From positions 1 through 39,163 of the forward strand of contig JAFXAN010000154.1 in NCBI GenBank assembly GCA_017517035.1: a DNA stretch of 39,163 nucleotides. The letters run 5' to 3'. Source of the stretch: Clostridia bacterium (lineage in GTDB: Bacteria; Bacillota; Clostridia; Oscillospirales; CAG-272). Within the stretch, counting starts at the first letter, position 1, and each line of letters begins with the position of its first letter. Positions 4,177 to 21,496 of this stretch are shown here, in pieces. The position numbers and the translations under genes are program-made. Below the pieces are notes generated by a model that saw only the letters and a list, made by a program, of their open reading frames with translations, ran no database searches and was not told the DNA's origin.

Positions 4177-6276
4177 TTAGTTCACAGATGCTTCTCCAAG
4201 TTCGAATCTTTGCTGAATCTTGTTTGCATTCGGGTATGTATGCCCCATATTCTGGACATAAGTTACTTGCTTATCGCATTTCAGCTGATTATACATCGCC
4301 GTGATTCCCGAGGGAACGCAGGTTACATCTCCAAGTCCCACCATCAGCTTTACGGGGCAGGTGATTCTGCGTGCAAAGAAACAAGCATCATAATAAAGTG
4401 ACGCAGGAGTTGACGGACCATAGCTCTTCTTTCTTCCGGTATTTACGCCCTGTTTATCACACATTGCGGGAACATCTGCAGTGCAGAGGGAAACATCCTT
4501 ATCAAGTGCAGCGGTAAAGAGTGCCTGGAATCCGCCCTCACTCATTCCCGCAACCTCAAGCCGCTCTCCATCCCAAAGATTTTCTCCTCTCTCACCGAAG
4601 CATGACTTGACAAAACGGAGTGCTTGAAGATCACGCATCACCATATAGCTGTAAAATACCTCTGCAGGATCATCGGGAGCATTTTTTGTTGCATAACCGC
4701 TGAGGGTCGTTGCATAGAGATTGCTGTAAAAATCATCGCCCATTTTGCTTGGAATACTGTGTCCATTTACCGCCACACAGATATAATCGGATTTTTTAGC
4801 AAGATGAGACTCGGTGCTTCTGACACCTGCGCCCATGAATTTAACATAAATTCCGAGTGACTCCTCGTCAGCATTCTTAGGAACACTCACATAAATGGCA
4901 GAATATGTTTCACCCGTCCATTTTGTGTTACCGGGACAATCCACCTTTATATCATAAATATAATAATCGTTATTTGAACCGGATTCATACATATCAATAG
5001 CCATAGGAGCTACGGCATCAAGCCGCTTTAGCTGCTTTTCCCAAAATTCATCAAAATCATCCGGCTCGTCTGCCGCAGGCATTATATCTCCAAATCCGGC
5101 ACAAGCGCCTGCACTGCATTTATCAACCGCCTCGATGACATTTCCTTCCGCATCGCAAGCCTGAACTGTTACAAGAACGAACCCAGGCTCATCCATTTCA
5201 GCTTCAAGCTCGAGCTTTCCGGAGCCACCGGCTGAAATACCGGACACAGCTTCTCCGCCCTCGGGACTGATGCTCCATTTAAACATTGGACAAGAACGGA
5301 TCTCATCTCCCGATGTCAGAACGATCTCAAATTTCATTTTTTCGCCGACCTTATAATCAAGAGCATCCTTATCGGTGTTGACAACAAAGTATTTGACAGA
5401 AGAATTACCCGAGGCAATATCATCAAAAATCGAAGGTGCGATGATTCCCTGCTTTGTGATGTCAAGTGAAATTGCCTCTCCTTCCTCCGCAGAGCTTGGA
5501 ACGAGCTTCAGAAGCTCATCAAATGCAGTTCCGAGAGCAACGCTGTCGGAGCCTGTTATATAGACATTTTCGCCTTCAACATAGTTTCTATAACTTCCTG
5601 CATCAAGGGTTTCATCAATCTTAATAAGAATATTCTTTTCTCCCTCGGTATCCGTGAGAGGCATTTCATAGCCGAAAACATCCTTGATCCTGCTTCTGAG
5701 AATGCTGACAAAATCTGCGCTGAGCCTGTTTTTATTGACTATGGTATAGTCCTTCATATTAAGCCCACCGAGAATGAGATCGGGATAATCAAAGGCATAT
5801 TCGTATTTTTCGCCCTCTTTGAGCTTTATCGCATCATCACCGTGGTCAAGATAGTTTTCAAGGAAATAGTCAACCGCCGCGACGGTATCGGCATTTGTGC
5901 CGCCCAAAATCACGATCTTTGTGCCGACATAGTCGATAACAAAGCTTTTTGGCGACATTTTCGAATATGTCTTGCTTGCCTCACGCTTGGTTATTCCAAC
6001 AAGGATCTCGTGCTTTGTCTCCTTGGTGAAGCCGGTATAGTCTGTGCCGATCTTAACATCCTTCCCCGCAGCTTCTTCAAGAGCCTTCTGAAGCTTTGTT
6101 GCGGCAGATACCACTTCTTTTGCGGCATTATCGCCTCTTATTATTGTAAATTCAAAATAGTCGGGAGCTTTAACTGCATTATCCTTTTCCGAATCAGCAC
6201 CGGAATTGGTGTTATCACCGCAAGATGCGCAGAAAACAAGCATCAAAACCGCTAAAACAAGCAATATTTTTTTCAT
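4177..6276 (-). CDS. Lipoprotein acetyl xylan esterase-like protein (CE7/AXE1 type)
   Basis: A 699-residue predicted lipoprotein: hydrophobic signal with a Cys at residue 19 (CASC). The middle holds a domain like the N-terminal alpha/beta domains of some glycoside hydrolases (AATKLQKALEEAAG ... EILVGITKR) and a beta-rich region. From about residue 405 there is an AXE1/cephalosporin-C deacetylase alpha/beta hydrolase. The likely triad is Ser579 in GMSEGG, Asp650 in GLGD and His679 in NMGH. CE7 enzymes remove acetyl groups from xylo-oligosaccharides or other small acetyl esters. The usual CE7 protein is about 320 residues, so the N-terminal half is an addition. ATG 6274-6276 has GGAGG at 10 nt. 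Monocistronic. Confidence 0.85.
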   Translation of the reverse strand: MKKILLVLAVLMLVFCASCGDNTNSGADSEKDNAVKAPDYFEFTIIRGDNAAKEVVSAATKLQKALEEAAGKDVKIGTDYTGFTKETKHEILVGITKREASKTYSKMSPKSFVIDYVGTKIVILGGTNADTVAAVDYFLENYLDHGDDAIKLKEGEKYEYAFDYPDLILGGLNMKDYTIVNKNRLSADFVSILRSRIKDVFGYEMPLTDTEGEKNILIKIDETLDAGSYRNYVEGENVYITGSDSVALGTAFDELLKLVPSSAEEGEAISLDITKQGIIAPSIFDDIASGNSSVKYFVVNTDKDALDYKVGEKMKFEIVLTSGDEIRSCPMFKWSISPEGGEAVSGISAGGSGKLELEAEMDEPGFVLVTVQACDAEGNVIEAVDKCSAGACAGFGDIMPAADEPDDFDEFWEKQLKRLDAVAPMAIDMYESGSNNDYYIYDIKVDCPGNTKWTGETYSAIYVSVPKNADEESLGIYVKFMGAGVRSTESHLAKKSDYICVAVNGHSIPSKMGDDFYSNLYATTLSGYATKNAPDDPAEVFYSYMVMRDLQALRFVKSCFGERGENLWDGERLEVAGMSEGGFQALFTAALDKDVSLCTADVPAMCDKQGVNTGRKKSYGPSTPASLYYDACFFARRITCPVKLMVGLGDVTCVPSGITAMYNQLKCDKQVTYVQNMGHTYPNANKIQQRFELGEASVN

Positions 6277-11169: not shown

Positions 11170-13869
11170 TTATATGTACCTATCGGTCACAAGTAAAATT
11201 ACATAACCGATAACAGAAATCAGAACTGCCGCCGAGCAAACCTGCCATCCGGGGAAGCTTATACCGAGAAATGCACCGAAAGACGGCAGCGAAAGTGCGA
11301 GCACCAAGAATAGCAGAACCAAGACAAGCATCCCTGAAACGAATATTTCTTTGAATCTTCCCTCGCCCCTTCTTGCAATTATAAAAATTGCGAAAATCTG
11401 CGAAAGGATAGCGGAAACAAAGGCAAAAGTTGAGAGATGTTCAACTGATACGGTTCCTGTAGATCCGAAAACTGCTGCAAGCATCAGCATAACAGCACCG
11501 AGAGCAGCTCCCGAAATCAAATATTTCATAAGCTTCTTCAAAGGCGATGACACGAGGGTTTCAACATCCTCTATTCGGTCACCGAAGCTGTTTGTATGAG
11601 ATGACAAAGCAAAGCAAAGCATTGCCGGGATGTCAACAAGAGCAAACAGGAACATTAGCTGTACGGCACTTAAAATCATTTTCCCCACAAAAAGCGGAAG
11701 AAGCGTCAGCACCAACTTAAGAGCAGATGAGAAAGCAAGATATTTGATGAATCCGCCAAGCCCTACACAGGCATTCTTTGACATGAGAACGGAATTGCAG
11801 AAGGATTCAAATCCTCCGCTTTTCTTTCTTGCAAAGGGGACAAGAACATCCGCATTTTTACGCATTATTTCAGAGCTGCTTCTGATGGTATCAAGTGCGG
11901 TGCGTCTTTCATATGTATCCGCTTCTGTTACTGCAATATTGGCTCGGTTGAGAAGTGAAAGATAATCAGTTGCCGAAGCAATAACAGCAAGAGTACCGTC
12001 ATCCCCTCGGATCTCCTTGACAAGCGCTTCAAGCTCACGCTCGCTAAATCCAAGATATGCTTTATACCGTCCGAAATCGGAAAGAATGTTCTTTCCTGCC
12101 CGTCTGAATGCAGAAGCATATGCGATCTCTTGTTTACTCTTTACAGCTCCTATATTGAATGCCGTGATCACAGAATCGGCGCACTCATCGGCAGCATAAT
12201 AGAATGTTATATCCGCTTCTCGCATCTCCTCGATGCGTGCGGCAAGATCCTCATGATAAGGATCGGAATAAACAATATATCCCTCAAGAACGAGCTGATT
12301 TTGAACAAGACCAAGTCTTTCAAGCCTTGCTATAGGGCTTATTCTTGATGCCACAAGAGTAACGCTCTTTGATTTTTTCGTAAGCTGTGTGCAAGCTCTG
12401 ATGATGTCGGACTTTTTATCCTCATCAAGCTCAATTGCACCGTCAGGTGTTCTGATATAATCGCAAAGTGCAAGAAGAGATGCATTATCCGAGGTGCATA
12501 TAACTCTATATTCTTCACCGTCGCTTATAAGTGTTGTATCATATCCCGAAACTCCTGCCGGTGAAAACTCCACTCTTTTATATTTTTCCTCAAGAACGCT
12601 TCGGTTTATGACGCATCCTTCGGCAAATTTTGCAATGGCTGCCGCGCAGAGTATTTCGTTATCAGAGCCTTCAAAAATACTACCGATTCCCGTCTCGAGA
12701 TAATGCGCACTTCCGAGAAGAGCAAGATCAAGGAAGCAGAAAAGTCCTTGATTTCCTTCAGCATCGGTACTTTTTCCGTCATAGAAATTATTTGAAGCAA
12801 AAACACTTTCAACGCTCTTATCGCTATCACAAAGGGCATCATTTCCGACCACAAGAACAGAATCTATATAATTCATCTCCTGAACCACATGGGGAAATTT
12901 GATCTGAGCATCATTTTCCGCATGGTCGCATTTACTCATAGCTATCGCAGGAAAGATATATGTAAGTGCGCTTATGATCTCGCCTCCGAGACTTACCGCA
13001 AGTGCCAGCAAAGACAGAAGTACATCAAACAGTCCAAGTTCTCCTCTGCCTGAGATCATCGCTATGATAACAAAAGGCACTGCGGCGATCACAAGTGCAA
13101 GATTGACTCTTGAGAGAACCTTTGAAAGATCCGAAAGAAGCTTTATCTCCTTTTTTCTCTCGGGAACTATATCAAGCTCACCGAGAAGCAACGAAAGAAA
13201 TGTTTTTCTTCCTGTTCTGACAGCTATTGCTCTTCCGCTTCCCGATACGATAACAGAAGAAGCCACGAGCATATTTTTCTGTTCGGAAACATTGGGCTTG
13301 TTTTCGGGGCGGCAGATAAATTCTGCATCCTTTTCATTAAGTCCTCTTTTTTCCTTTCCTGCGATCTTTCCCACAAATTCGACCGCACGCATTCCCGAGG
13401 AGCTGACAAGCCTGCAATCGCAAGGTACGATATCTCCCTTTTCCAAAAGAATAACATCGCCGCTTACCACAAGATCATGGTCGATCACATAGACCTTTCC
13501 GCCTCTTATGACCTTTGATCTGGGATTTGAAAGCTCTGCCCCCGTCTCAAAGCGTCGCATTGAGAGCAGATATGCTATGGCTGAAACTGAAAAAGCAAAA
13601 AGAACAAGTCCAAGAGCCACCCCTGCGCGCCTGCCGTCATCAAGAAATGCGCTTATAAGAGCTGCAATAACAAAGAGAATAAAGGTGATATCAATCGCTA
13701 TTCTCGCAATATGCTGAAGGATCGGCAAGCGAGCACTGCTATAAACAGAGCCACCCTCACCTCGTCTTCTTCTGCGTTCGGCTTCCTTGAGGTCAAGACC
13801 CGATGAAGCGTTTGTATTCAGTTTTTTCTCAACATCGGAAATTGGCAGTGAATACCATCTCTCATTCAT
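11170..13869 (-). CDS. P-type ATPase homologue lacking the catalytic motifs
   Basis: An 899-residue intact ORF with the architecture of a P2-type cation ATPase. It has the cation-ATPase N-terminus (W5 ... GLDLKEAERRRRRG), paired membrane helices near 51-105, an actuator-like domain, helices at 253-310, a large cytoplasmic region, and about six C-terminal helices from residue ~707. The signatures are missing: TGES is AGKE (170-173), the DKTGT phosphorylation site reads GNDAL (342-346), and GDGVND is replaced by IASATD (630-635). The DPPR-like segment survives as SDPYHED (535-541). There are no frameshifts or stops, and codon use looks normal, so it is more likely a pseudoenzyme than a decayed gene. 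RBS AAAGGAGG. Role unknown. Confidence 0.8.
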   Translation of the reverse strand: MNERWYSLPISDVEKKLNTNASSGLDLKEAERRRRRGEGGSVYSSARLPILQHIARIAIDITFILFVIAALISAFLDDGRRAGVALGLVLFAFSVSAIAYLLSMRRFETGAELSNPRSKVIRGGKVYVIDHDLVVSGDVILLEKGDIVPCDCRLVSSSGMRAVEFVGKIAGKEKRGLNEKDAEFICRPENKPNVSEQKNMLVASSVIVSGSGRAIAVRTGRKTFLSLLLGELDIVPERKKEIKLLSDLSKVLSRVNLALVIAAVPFVIIAMISGRGELGLFDVLLSLLALAVSLGGEIISALTYIFPAIAMSKCDHAENDAQIKFPHVVQEMNYIDSVLVVGNDALCDSDKSVESVFASNNFYDGKSTDAEGNQGLFCFLDLALLGSAHYLETGIGSIFEGSDNEILCAAAIAKFAEGCVINRSVLEEKYKRVEFSPAGVSGYDTTLISDGEEYRVICTSDNASLLALCDYIRTPDGAIELDEDKKSDIIRACTQLTKKSKSVTLVASRISPIARLERLGLVQNQLVLEGYIVYSDPYHEDLAARIEEMREADITFYYAADECADSVITAFNIGAVKSKQEIAYASAFRRAGKNILSDFGRYKAYLGFSERELEALVKEIRGDDGTLAVIASATDYLSLLNRANIAVTEADTYERRTALDTIRSSSEIMRKNADVLVPFARKKSGGFESFCNSVLMSKNACVGLGGFIKYLAFSSALKLVLTLLPLFVGKMILSAVQLMFLFALVDIPAMLCFALSSHTNSFGDRIEDVETLVSSPLKKLMKYLISGAALGAVMLMLAAVFGSTGTVSVEHLSTFAFVSAILSQIFAIFIIARRGEGRFKEIFVSGMLVLVLLFLVLALSLPSFGAFLGISFPGWQVCSAAVLISVIGYVILLVTDRYI

Positions 13870-13892: not shown

Positions 13893-16178
13893 TTACTTAC
13901 AAGTTATCTTAAGCTCACCGTTTTCTGCCGATATTTCAGCTTCGGAGAAGCTTCTGTTATAGTCCGAGATAATAAGCTCTGCCAGCTTATCCTCGATCTC
14001 CGTCTGAATGAATCTTCTCATATTTCTCGCACCGAATTTTGCGGAATATGATCTTTCGGCAATAAGTGCAAGAGCATCGTCACTATACTTAAGCCTGATA
14101 TCCTTCTCACCGAGAACCGATTCAAGCTCACAAATCATAATGCCCGCAATTTTTGCAAAATCCTGTTTATCAAGCGAACGGAATGTGATGATCTCATCGA
14201 CTCTGTTGATAAATTCGGGACGCAGGAAGGAAGATAGCGCCTTCTCGGTCTTTGCTTCCGCAACATTCTCACTGCTTGCAGAGAAGCCTGCGGATGATGT
14301 GTTTCTATCAGAGCCTGCGTTGGTTGTCATAACGATTACTGTATTTTCAAAATTGACCGTCTTTCCGTGTGCATCGGTAATTCTTCCGTCATCAAGAATC
14401 TGGAGAAGAATATTGAGAACATCGGGGTGTGCCTTTTCGATCTCGTCAAACAGAATTACAGAATACGGCTTGCGTCTTATCTTTTCCGTAAGCTGTCCCG
14501 CCTCGTCATAGCCCACATATCCGGGAGGCGCTCCGATTATTCTCGAAACCGAATGCTTCTCCATAAATTCAGACATATCAAGGCGAATGAGAGTTTCGGG
14601 AGAATTGAAAAGATCATTTGCAAGAGTCTTTACAAGTTCGGTTTTTCCTACACCTGTTGGACCTGCGAAAATGAAGGATACCGGCTTCTTTTTATAGGAG
14701 ATGCCCGCTCTTGAGCGCTTTATTGCTCTTGAAACGGCTTCAACAGCCTTATCCTGACCGATGATGCGTGCCTTCAAACGCTCCTCAAGCTTATCTATCT
14801 TCGCAAACTCATTTTCGGTGATGTTTGTTGCGGGAATCCCCGTCCATATCTCAATTACAGAAGCAAGATCCTCAACTGTCAATGTTACATTTTGGCATTT
14901 CGGTTCTATTTCGTTAAGTCTTTCGGAAAGGCGCATTTCCTCAGACTTATATTTTGCAATAAGCTCATATTTTTTAGTTTCAGCCTCTGCGCCCTCTGCG
15001 TTTTCAGCCTCGCACTTTTCTCTTGCTTCCTTTACGGAAAGGAGCTTATCTCTGATCTCATAACTTTCGTTTATCTCTGCGGTATTGAGAGAAAGATTTG
15101 CTGCTGCCTCATCAAGAAGGTCGATTGCCTTATCGGGCAGATATCTGTCTGTTATATATCTTTCACTCATTTTAACAGCCTTATCGAGCACAGAGGAAGG
15201 AACCTTGATTCTATGGAAATCCTCATAATAATGCTTGATACCCTCAAGCATCTTGATACTTTCCTCAATGGAAGGCTCATTAACAGTTACAGGCTGGAAG
15301 CGTCTTTCAAGAGCCGAGTCCTTTTCAATATATTTTCTATATTCTCTGAGTGTTGTTGCACCAATGACCTGGATCTCTCCTCTTGAAAGTGCGGGTTTCA
15401 TTATATTTGCAGCATTCATGCTTCCCTCGGCATCACCCGAGCCGACTATATTATGAACCTCGTCGATAACGAGAATAACATTTCCCGCTTCTCTAACCTC
15501 ATTTATAAGCCCCTGCATCCTCTGCTCAAACTGTCCTCTGAACTGAGTTCCCGCAACAAGAGCGGTAAGGTCAACGAGATAGACCTGATGATCCTTCAGC
15601 TTATAAGGAACATCATTTGCCGCAATTTTCTGTGCAAGAGCTTCTGCGATTGCGGTTTTACCTACGCCCGGCTCACCGATAAGGCAAGGATTGTTCTTCT
15701 GACGGCGGCAAAGGATCTGAATAACTCTATTTAGCTCTCTTTCCCTGCCGATTATTCTGTCAAGTTCACCGCGCTTTGCTTTTTCTGTCAGATTTCTGCA
15801 ATAGGTATCAAGAAATTTTCTTTTCTTTTCTCCTGTATTTTTTGCGTTCTGTTGCTTTTTTGGCGGAATATTTCCACTGACATTTCCCTGATTTCCCATC
15901 AGCTTATGAAAATCTATTGCAGGCGCACCGCCATCAATATTATCAGGGTCAAAATCCTCGCTCTCAATGAGCTGGGTCATCCCCTCCTCCATCTCCTCAA
16001 GCTGCTCGGGATCAAGTCCGAATTTTCCAAGCACTCCGCCAAGCATATTGTCAATGGGTATTCCGATCTCCTTGGCGCATTTTATACAATATCCTCGACT
16101 TTTGCTCTCACCGTTTTCGTTTGTGGTGGCAAAAATCACTGCCATTCTCTTCTGGCATCTGGAACAACGAGCTACCAT
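13893..16178 (-). CDS. ClpE-like Clp/Hsp100 AAA+ unfoldase with N-terminal zinc finger
   Basis: A 761-residue two-AAA-domain unfoldase. The N-terminus has a four-cysteine zinc site (Cys5, Cys8, Cys31, Cys34), as in ClpE, instead of the ClpC N-domain. D1 has Walker A GEPGVGKT (168-175) and Walker B LVIDE. A short coiled middle region spans about 373-430. D2 has GPTGVGKT (506-513), Walker B VILFDE (574-579) and sensor [10 protein letters not shown] loop with AGF (630-632) is placed like the ClpP-binding loop, suggesting work with ClpP in protein unfolding and degradation. A linker rich in acidic residues follows the zinc finger. It lies 3 nt after the CvpA-like gene and is embedded in a housekeeping operon. 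No CtsR-type operator was noticed upstream. Confidence 0.88.
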
Positions 16179-18182: not shown

Positions 18183-18944
18183 TCATCGGTATTTTACAAA
18201 ATTGAGATATAGTCCCTCGGGCGGTGCGGTCATTCCCGCTCTTGTTCTGTCACCGCTCTCGGTTATAGAAGGTATTTCATCGGGCGAAATTTTTCCAAGA
18301 GCAACATTCACCAGAGTTCCCGTCATTATTCTGACCATGTTATAAAGAAATCCGTCACCTGCAACCTTGAAAATTATATTTTCTCTGTCCCTTATCACAT
18401 CGGTATAGAATATCGTTCTGACTGTGCTTTCCACAGGTGATCCCTGTGCCATATAAGCGGAAAAATCATGAGTTCCTTCAAAATGCTTTGCCGCTTTTTT
18501 CATTTTTTCGATGGCTGAATCATCAAGCTCTCTCGGATAATGCCAGCATCTGTCCGAAAGAAAGGGATCTCTCTCATGTGAGCATCTTATCTTGTAGATA
18601 TATTCCTTATATTCAACATCATGTCTTGCATGAAAATCCTCGCTCACCCATTCCGCTTCATAAACAGCGATATCGGGTGGCAAGAAAGCATTTATGGCCC
18701 TCGGAAGTCTATCCATCGGGAGAGTGGTTTCGATTTTGTTCTCACCATGGCGTACAACGGTCGCGCAAAACATATTCGCATGAACTCCGCTATCGGTACG
18801 GCTGCAGCCGGTTATATCACATTCAAATCCGAAAAGCTTTTCCGCAGCTTTGCAAAGCTCGCCCTGCACGGTTGGTGCGTTTTTTTGCACCTGATATCCC
18901 GAATATGCGCTGCCGAGATATTTTAGCTTTATAAATATCTTCAT
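18183..18944 (-). CDS. truA: tRNA pseudouridine synthase A
   Basis: A 253-residue TruA, which makes pseudouridine at positions 38-40 of tRNA anticodon arms. The catalytic Asp51 sits in GCSRTDSGVHA. The MVRIMTGTLVNVALGK segment is typical. The gene starts 1 nt after the ecfT stop with a weak Shine-Dalgarno inside ecfT, suggesting coupled translation. In many Firmicutes truA follows the ecf genes. Confidence 0.95.
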   Translation of the reverse strand: MKIFIKLKYLGSAYSGYQVQKNAPTVQGELCKAAEKLFGFECDITGCSRTDSGVHANMFCATVVRHGENKIETTLPMDRLPRAINAFLPPDIAVYEAEWVSEDFHARHDVEYKEYIYKIRCSHERDPFLSDRCWHYPRELDDSAIEKMKKAAKHFEGTHDFSAYMAQGSPVESTVRTIFYTDVIRDRENIIFKVAGDGFLYNMVRIMTGTLVNVALGKISPDEIPSITESGDRTRAGMTAPPEGLYLNFVKYR

Positions 18945-18945
18945 T

Positions 18946-19764
18946 TTACATCGAATATCCTATGCTTAAAATATTGAGTGCTATAATGGAAGCGCCAAAT
19001 GCGATCATGATAAAGAGCCAAACAAAGTCAGACGCCCGATAATGCAGAATGCTCATTCTGGTCCTTCCCTCTCCGCCGTGATAACAGCGGCATTCCATTG
19101 CCGTTGCAAGCTCGTCTGCCCGTCTGAACGAGGAAACGAAAAGCGGTATCAAAATCGGTATCAGTGCTTTTGCACGCTTTATGAGACTTCCGCTTGTGAA
19201 ATCCGCTCCTCTTGCCTTTTGCGCCGACATAATTTTGTCGGTTTCATCAATGAGAGTTGGTATAAATCGCAGAGCGATGGTCATCATCATAGCAAATTCA
19301 TGAACCGGAATCTTTATCTTTTTTAGCGGTGCAAAAAGCTGTTCGATGGCATCCGTCAGTGCAATGGGTGTTGTGGTATAAGTCAAAAACAGGCTCGCAC
19401 CCACGATAAGCACAAATATACGAAGCACAATAAATATCGCATTCATCACGCCCTCAAGATAAATATGGATAAAGCGCCATTCAAAGAGCACTGTCTCACC
19501 GCTTGTCCAGAAAATATTGATAACAACGGTAAATGCAAGTATAAAAAGTATTGGCTTTATTGACCTCATTATAAGTCCCATGGGTATTCTGCTGACAAAT
19601 ATCAGCAAAACAGCCGAAAATAAAAGCAATACAAAGCTTAAGATATTACTGCAAAGAAACGAGCAGATTATATAGAGAAACGAGAAAATGAGCTTCATTC
19701 TCGGGTCTGCTCTGTGAACTGCCGAATTTCCCGGGTAATACTGTCCAAGAGAAATGTTTTTCAT
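18946..19764 (-). CDS. ecfT: ECF transporter T component EcfT
   Basis: A 272-residue integral membrane protein with several hydrophobic helices, starting with LGQYYPGNSAVHRADPRMKL, the standard EcfT N-terminus. Coupling motifs contain ARGADF and RADELATAMECRCY, the Ala-Arg-Gly type sites that contact the two ATPases. It transmits ATP hydrolysis to exchangeable substrate-binding S components. No S component is encoded in this window. Twelve nt after ecfA2. Confidence 0.95.
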   Translation of the reverse strand: MKNISLGQYYPGNSAVHRADPRMKLIFSFLYIICSFLCSNILSFVLLLFSAVLLIFVSRIPMGLIMRSIKPILFILAFTVVINIFWTSGETVLFEWRFIHIYLEGVMNAIFIVLRIFVLIVGASLFLTYTTTPIALTDAIEQLFAPLKKIKIPVHEFAMMMTIALRFIPTLIDETDKIMSAQKARGADFTSGSLIKRAKALIPILIPLFVSSFRRADELATAMECRCYHGGEGRTRMSILHYRASDFVWLFIMIAFGASIIALNILSIGYSM

Positions 19765-19776
19765 TTTTTTCCAATC

Positions 19777-20622
19777 TTAAAGAAGTTTATATATTTCGTT
19801 CAGCGCATCATCAACGGTATAGACCGAATCCGACACGGGGATTCCCATTTTTGTGAGAAGATTCATCATTTTCGTTATCTGCGGAACATCAAGTCCAACG
19901 CTTGTCAGTTCTTCGCTTCTGCCAAAGACCTCTTCCTTTTTTCCGGACATAAGAAGCTTTCCCGAAGACAAAACAATAAGCTCATCACAATATTTCGCCA
20001 TGTCCTCCATGCTGTGGCTGACGATAACGATGGTTGCACCTGTTCTTGCTTTATAGCCCATGATGCTTTTCATTATCATCTCTCTGCCCGAAGGATCAAG
20101 ACCCGCAGCTGGCTCATCGAGAACAAGCACCTCGGGGCGCATTGCGATGATTCCCGCAATGGCGGCTCTTCTCTTTTGACCGCCTGAAAGATCAAATGGG
20201 GATTTATCGAGAAGATCATGCGCAAGTCCGACGAAATCCGCAGCCTCAAGAACTCTTTCGCCGATCTCTTTTTCGTCTATCCCCATATTCTTTGGACCAA
20301 AGGCAATATCTGCTCTTATAGTCTCCTCAAAGAGCTGATATTCGGGGTACTGCATAACAAGTCCGACTTTTGCTCTTATCTTGCCGATTTCCTTTGGCTT
20401 TTCCCATATATCCTCGCCATCGAGAAGAACCTTTCCGGCAGAAGGCTTTACAAGTCCGTTCAGCATCTGAACAAGAGTGGACTTTCCCGAGCCTGTATGC
20501 CCTATTATTCCCGTCACAGAACCGCTTTTTATGCAAACATTTATATCATCAAGTGCGCTTATCTCATATGGTGTTCCTTCACTATAGACATATGAAACAT
20601 TTTCGAGTCTGATCTCAGCCAT
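19777..20622 (-). CDS. ecfA2: ECF transporter ATPase EcfA2
   Basis: A 281-residue ABC ATPase beginning MAEIRLENVSYVYSEGTPY. It has Walker A GHTGSGKST (41-49), Q-loop MQYPEYQLFEETI, signature LSGGQKRRAAIAG and Walker B VLVLDEPAAGLDP. A longer in-frame ORF exists upstream inside ecfA1, but ATG 20620-20622 has GGAGG and gives the family N-terminus. It overlaps the ecfA1 stop by 8 nt, so translation is coupled. Forms the heterodimer with EcfA1. Confidence 0.95.
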   Translation of the reverse strand: MAEIRLENVSYVYSEGTPYEISALDDINVCIKSGSVTGIIGHTGSGKSTLVQMLNGLVKPSAGKVLLDGEDIWEKPKEIGKIRAKVGLVMQYPEYQLFEETIRADIAFGPKNMGIDEKEIGERVLEAADFVGLAHDLLDKSPFDLSGGQKRRAAIAGIIAMRPEVLVLDEPAAGLDPSGREMIMKSIMGYKARTGATIVIVSHSMEDMAKYCDELIVLSSGKLLMSGKKEEVFGRSEELTSVGLDVPQITKMMNLLTKMGIPVSDSVYTVDDALNEIYKLL

Positions 20623-21496
20623 TAGCACCGCCTCCAATAAAATTTGCCAGAAGAGCCGCACATTTTTCGGGTGTTGTACATTCACCTGTAATCTTATATC
20701 CCTTACGGCGAAGCTCCTGTATAAGTGCGGTACATTGAGGAACCTCAAGTCCCGCAAGCTCCAGCTTATAAGGCTCACCGAAGATCTCTTCGGGTGTGCC
20801 GTCCATATATACCTTTCCGTCATTCAGAACGATAACTCTGTCGGCTCTCACCGCCTCGTTCATATGGTGGGTAATATTGATCACCGTTATTCCCTTTTCA
20901 CGGCGAAGCATATCAATGGTTTCCATGACCTCACGCCTTCCTATTGGGTCGAGCATGGCGGTGGATTCATCAAAGATCATACAGTCAGGCATCATTGCGA
21001 TAATTCCCGCAATGGCAACTCTCTGCTTCTGACCGCCTGAAAGTCTATGAGGCTCATGGCGAGCATATTCGGTCATTCCAACGATTTGGAGCGCCTCGTC
21101 CACTCTCTTTCTTATCTCGTCCGAGGGTATGCCGAGGTTTTCGGGGCCAAAGGCAACATCCTCCTCAACGATGGTGGCAACAAGCTGATTATCAGGATTC
21201 TGAAAGACCATTCCGACCTTTCTTCTGATATCATAGATATCTCTTTCTGTCATCTCATCGCTCGTGATATCAACACCGTCAATATAGATTTTCCCCGAAT
21301 CGGGCATATGGATCATATTGAGAAGCTTTGCAAATGTGGATTTGCCCGAGCCGTTATGCCCAAGCACCGCAACATATTCGCCTTTTTTGATCCCAAGGGA
21401 AATGCCGCAGAGAACCTGCACCCTTTTTCCGTCGTCCTCTTCATAAGAGGCATATAGATCTTCTGTTTTTATAAAAAATTCATTCATTTCGTTCAT
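20615..21496 (-). CDS. ecfA1: ECF transporter ATPase EcfA1
   Basis: A 293-residue ABC ATPase with Walker A GHNGSGKST (46-54), Q-loop VFQNPDNQLVATIVEEDVAFGPEN, signature LSGGQ (152-156) and Walker B CMIFDE (172-177) followed by STAMLDP. The QNPDNQ and EEDVAFGPEN segments are typical of EcfA1. ATG 21494-21496 overlaps the upstream stop by one base; an in-frame ATG lies 9 nt downstream, so the start is uncertain by three codons. Confidence 0.95.
   Translation of the reverse strand: MNEMNEFFIKTEDLYASYEEDDGKRVQVLCGISLGIKKGEYVAVLGHNGSGKSTFAKLLNMIHMPDSGKIYIDGVDITSDEMTERDIYDIRRKVGMVFQNPDNQLVATIVEEDVAFGPENLGIPSDEIRKRVDEALQIVGMTEYARHEPHRLSGGQKQRVAIAGIIAMMPDCMIFDESTAMLDPIGRREVMETIDMLRREKGITVINITHHMNEAVRADRVIVLNDGKVYMDGTPEEIFGEPYKLELAGLEVPQCTALIQELRRKGYKITGECTTPEKCAALLANFIGGGANG

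Follow-up and report, generated by a model that had tools for sequence, protein, structure and literature searches.

The open reading frame at 11170..13869 matches cation pump models, and P-type ATPases are textbook primary pumps; pseudoenzyme forms are well known among kinases and proteases. The frame lies on the minus strand of the window, the whole 39,163-nucleotide stretch of DNA analysed here, and encodes 899 residues from an ATG start intact to the stop. Its start is 23 nt past the stop of a gene for a ClpE-like AAA+ unfoldase (13893..16178, minus strand), and a ylmC/ymxH-type PRC-barrel gene (TIGR02888; 10837..11166, minus strand) follows 3 nt beyond its end, the clp-ORF-ylmC order that an earlier sequence-only reading had described. 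Farther upstream in the operon, also on the minus strand, are a cvpA-like membrane protein gene (PF02674; 16182..16907), a DUF5711 gene (PF18975; 16910..18169) and, in conserved order, truA (18183..18944), ecfT (18946..19764) and ecfA (19777..20823). The ClpE-like protein contains an N-terminal four-Cys zinc finger, two AAA+ modules and an xGF ClpP loop, and ClpP is encoded in the window genome.

Pfam and NCBIfam class the 899-aa protein with the cation P-type ATPases, through Pfam matches to E1-E2_ATPase (1e-18), Cation_ATPase_C (1.7e-7) and Cation_ATPase_N (8e-5), and a sequence search of the PDB returned MgtA and LMCA1 as top matches. The AlphaFold2 model (pLDDT 83, pTM 0.79) resembled P-type ATPases in the PDB over its full length in Foldseek, with E values of about 1e-36 and TM scores of up to 0.73. 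These three lines of evidence (Pfam, AlphaFold2 and Foldseek) recover the A, P and N domains and the ten-helix membrane part of the superfamily, bearing out the proposal of an intact, full-length cation P-type fold over 899 residues. The same reading had reported AGKE at residue 170, GNDAL at 342 and IASATD at 630 in place of the catalytic motifs; all three strings are found there, and alignment confirmed the losses but shifted the exact site by one residue for two of them. The TGES site of the A domain reads AGKE (residues 170-173; 13351..13362, minus strand), the DKTGT site of the P domain reads VGNDA (residues 341-345; 12835..12849, minus strand) with the phosphate-acceptor Asp replaced by Val, and the GDGVND site of the P domain reads ASATDY (residues 631-636; 11962..11979, minus strand) with the Mg-binding Asp replaced by Ser. 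The aligned protein thus has none of the DKTG[TS], TGES and GDGxND motifs of an active pump. Two other P-type ATPases of the same genome (L002 and L003) are canonical with all motifs present, so the loss is specific to the 11170-13869 gene. Its status as a pseudoenzyme, judged from sequence, is well supported.

Relatives were sought in 146 genomes of the window genome's GTDB-level family, where the identities of full-length homologues were 66 and 40 percent in its own genus and mostly 24-30 percent in the rest; the best 29 all lack DKTGT and GDGxND. A profile of 26 members combined with targeted neighbourhood checks suggested that about 100 of the 146 genomes carry a family member, a count that mixes motif-checked loci with loci assigned by score, as the motif check did not cover every genome. 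Two further families of the order carry a member in 12 of 13 (f17) and 11 of 13 (f20) sampled genomes. The clp locus was read in 14 other families of the order, and within the available sequence none has a P-type ATPase behind clp. In a class-wide sample searched with a second alignment as query, the best 29 loci from other genomes all keep DKTGT and GDGxND, and weak family members could be hidden beneath such canonical scores. Because the family is divergent, the related-loci search with the window protein alone as query gave no match; an alignment query found the relatives. Some genomes have a large open reading frame behind clp that could have been a diverged member; on inspection, one proved to be an S9 peptidase and the others had no P-type match. 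Named relatives carry the labels Oscillospiraceae, Clostridiales and Clostridia bacterium.

In two trees, the pseudo-members formed one clade against the canonical pumps with a support of 100; both were quick LG+G4 trees, whose inner branching order is unsure owing to long branches. In a tree of the Clp proteins, the three host families formed one clade and four changes of carrier state were needed, a number that fits a single gain of the pseudo-ATPase and a few later losses. The dN/dS ratio was 0.08-0.29 in 19 of 20 related pairs and dS was saturated in the remaining pair, the values being rough as several dS estimates exceeded 1. Together with frames that are intact in scores of independent genomes, these ratios show purifying rather than relaxed selection on the gene, as the sequence-only reading had argued.

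We aligned 83 pseudo-members with 25 canonical pumps. DKTGT was present at the aligned site in 0 of the 83 members, so the motif loss is shared by the homologues. Asp occupies the acceptor column in 3 members, which all lack DKTG; Glu occupies the TGES-Glu column in 9 and Asp the D703 column in 5, and TGE is kept in some members. Across members, all three residues give way to many different ones. Among 853 columns, they rank 244 (acceptor Asp), 759 (TGES Glu) and 669 (D703) in conservation, the first rank being raised because Pro is common in that column. The best-conserved columns include those of the A-domain core and of a transmembrane site formed by M4 Glu, M5 Gln and the M6 residues Gly and Asp; D138 and D151 of the A domain are invariant in the 83 members. 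Proteins of 684 aa in genomes G057 and G110 and an open frame of 759 aa in G051 have the nucleotide-binding domain deleted, with the A domain and the helices remaining, and represent two lineages that lie far from each other in the tree, where their branches are long.

At the transmembrane site, M4 Glu297 of the window protein (12979..12981, minus strand), aligned with the PEGL Glu (SERCA E309), is Glu or Asp in 71 of the 83 members, and M6 Asp746 (11632..11634, minus strand), aligned with SERCA D800, is Asp or Asn in 69; the two columns are the 7th and 8th of 257 transmembrane columns in conservation. The M5 Asn is replaced by Gln in 52 of 83 members and the M6 Asn by Gly in 73 of 83, so that only M4 Glu and M6 Asp are kept from the P2A Ca2+-type site (M4 Glu, M5 Asn, M6 Asn and Asp). 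With both acids kept and the M5 Gln and M6 Gly common, the membrane site is still conserved, in a version particular to the family. At the positions of the M5 Gln and M6 Gly, the window protein carries Ser715 and Phe742, which makes a ligand site a weaker proposal for its genus.

Most loci have the order ecfA-ecfT-truA-DUF5711-cvpA-clp before the pseudo-ATPase, with cvpA undetected at several. Among the 84 distinct members having upstream sequence, 81 were scored by script as directly behind clp, and 82 with L284 added on inspection, the count carrying a slight bias from a few members that were found by looking behind clp, most having been found by sequence; the corresponding number for canonical, intact-motif homologues is 0 of 115. 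The gap between the two genes has a median of 19 nt, with nine 4-nt overlaps. Intact-motif relatives at the same locus were considered and rejected, since the pseudo-members there lack the motifs and the canonical homologues are not behind clp. In the rearranged genomes G117 and G240, clp is present elsewhere in the genome, and none of the examined genomes has the pseudo-pump and no ClpE-like Clp. Neither gene was found in G040, G141, G095, G320 and G231, whose congeners or family members have both, a joint absence for part of which contig breaks, incomplete genomes or joint deletion could account. Other families, and some f1 genomes, have the same Clp but no pseudo-pump, so Clp does not need it. 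The idea that the Clp of pseudo-pump genomes is without the zinc finger or the ClpP loop was rejected, as the four-Cys N-terminal zinc finger and the xGF loop are present in nearly all carriers and non-carriers. The proposed partnership with the Clp ATPase, a guess in the sequence-only reading, now has strong genetic support, through an association with the clp gene of the kind expected of a Clp adaptor or partner.

Correlation of tree distances, with the other operon genes controlled, does not single out Clp. The partial r with the pseudo-ATPase was 0.41 for the DUF5711 protein and 0.30 for Clp, and TruA distances showed no correlation after the same control, so the fast-evolving DUF5711 protein tracks the pseudo-ATPase more closely than Clp does. 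This result, with the common operon, would speak for a structural partnership with the other envelope proteins of the operon (DUF5711 and CvpA) instead of Clp. We consider that unlikely, given that the pseudo-ATPase comes directly after clp in nearly all loci while cvpA is undetected in several, and that the fast evolution of both DUF5711 and the pseudo-ATPase can inflate their correlation. Somewhat less unlikely, if still improbable, is a pump-derived protein that conducts ions passively or senses them on its own, with a membrane site that binds a ligand and a link to clp that reflects shared expression only. The conserved M4 and M6 acids, the re-specified M5/M6 site and the two lineages that have membrane and A domains but no nucleotide domain would fit such a protein, but it would leave unexplained why no examined genome with the pseudo-ATPase lacks a ClpE-like Clp and why a large cytoplasmic A domain is conserved.

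Two further explanations have very little probability. An active ATPase with unorthodox catalysis could be suspected from the isolated residues that a few members keep, such as the acceptor-column Asp and TGE described above, but it would be hard to reconcile with the varied replacements at all three catalytic positions and with the lack of a nucleotide domain in two lineages, and we regard it as highly improbable. Decay of a pseudogene, to which the divergence of 24-30 percent identity between genera and an eroded copy in G065 might point, has the least to be said for it, and was rejected because intact frames and purifying selection contradict it.

Taking these observations together, we tentatively favour a pseudo-P-type-ATPase family of single origin. 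Its members would act at the membrane alongside the ClpE-like unfoldase, probably in the role of an adaptor or sensor that responds to a ligand or ion; the partnership with Clp is suggested by the genetic evidence. A P2-like cation pump gene may have landed behind clp in an ancestor shared by the three Clostridia families. There it would long ago have lost the chemistry of phosphorylation and dephosphorylation, and been retained afterwards. The pseudo-ATPase would sit in the membrane and act there as a receptor, adaptor or scaffold for the ClpE-like unfoldase. An ion or another ligand that occupies the putative retained M4/M5/M6 site might carry the A domain from E1-like to E2-like positions and back with no ATP involved, and this shift could alter how ClpE(P) is recruited to the membrane or how active it is there. 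A bolder form of the proposal, that the whole bacterial family of motor-less pumps consists of ligand-gated membrane receptors for a Clp unfoldase, with E1/E2-like movements driven by ligand instead of ATP, is conceivable, though we hold it to be doubtful.

The closest known systems are the P2A/P3B cation P-type ATPases (LMCA1, SERCA/SPCA and MgtA), with which the family shares the full-length fold, the A domain, the ten-helix membrane part, M4 Glu and M6 Asp. By contrast with these pumps, it lacks TGES, DKTGT and GDGVND, has the M5 and M6 Asn replaced and in some members has no N domain. McsB and MecA are adaptors or partners of Gram-positive ClpC/ClpE that are soluble and have folds unrelated to P-type ATPases; as the link to Clp is known here from genetics, they would be functional analogues only if that link is physical. 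Human TMEM94/ERMA has P-type-like features and a disputed pump status, one study having detected no ATPase activity and another paper defining an ER Mg2+ ATPase (PMC12134183, PMC13322241). It differs from the present family in being eukaryotic, in having a proposed phosphorylation site, D417, and in having no link to Clp. P6 ATPases such as CtpE are likewise P-type relatives with an altered membrane ion site, but are described as active pumps that keep PEGL and lack the M6 Asp (PMC10654040), whereas the pseudo-family keeps the M6 Asp and has lost the Pro of PEGL.

Full-text literature searches, in a collection with few subscription journals or preprints, returned no account of a conserved P-type pseudo-ATPase in bacteria, an absence that is not proof of novelty. 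In these uncultured Clostridia, a former pump fold seems to serve a task that involves no pumping, and selection has kept it across three bacterial families. The family has done away with the motor, and two of its lineages with the nucleotide domain as well, while the membrane site and the A domain are retained. It can thus serve as a natural experiment showing which elements of the pump fold still work in the absence of ATP, and a physical link to Clp would make it a new kind of membrane input to an AAA+ unfoldase. Such genes match cation-pump models but should not be counted as transporters.

Several minor observations accompany these results. In G065, the open reading frame behind clp (L404:3564-5672; 703 aa) is eroded further: it matches the family weakly and only in membrane and C-terminal parts, and the A domain, too, seems to be missing. 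The record L057, titled Candidatus Colimorpha enterica, carries a Clostridia-type ecfA-ecfT-truA-DUF5711-clp-pseudo-ATPase operon; NCBI puts that name in Bacteroidota, and the label is probably wrong. Elsewhere in the window, the product of 4177-6276 is a putative secreted lipoprotein; it contains an AXE1 esterase domain and matches GH20b weakly. Finally, L017, L021, L058, L059 and L060 form one subclade whose members bear a charged, low-complexity C-terminal tail of ~300 aa with no Pfam match.
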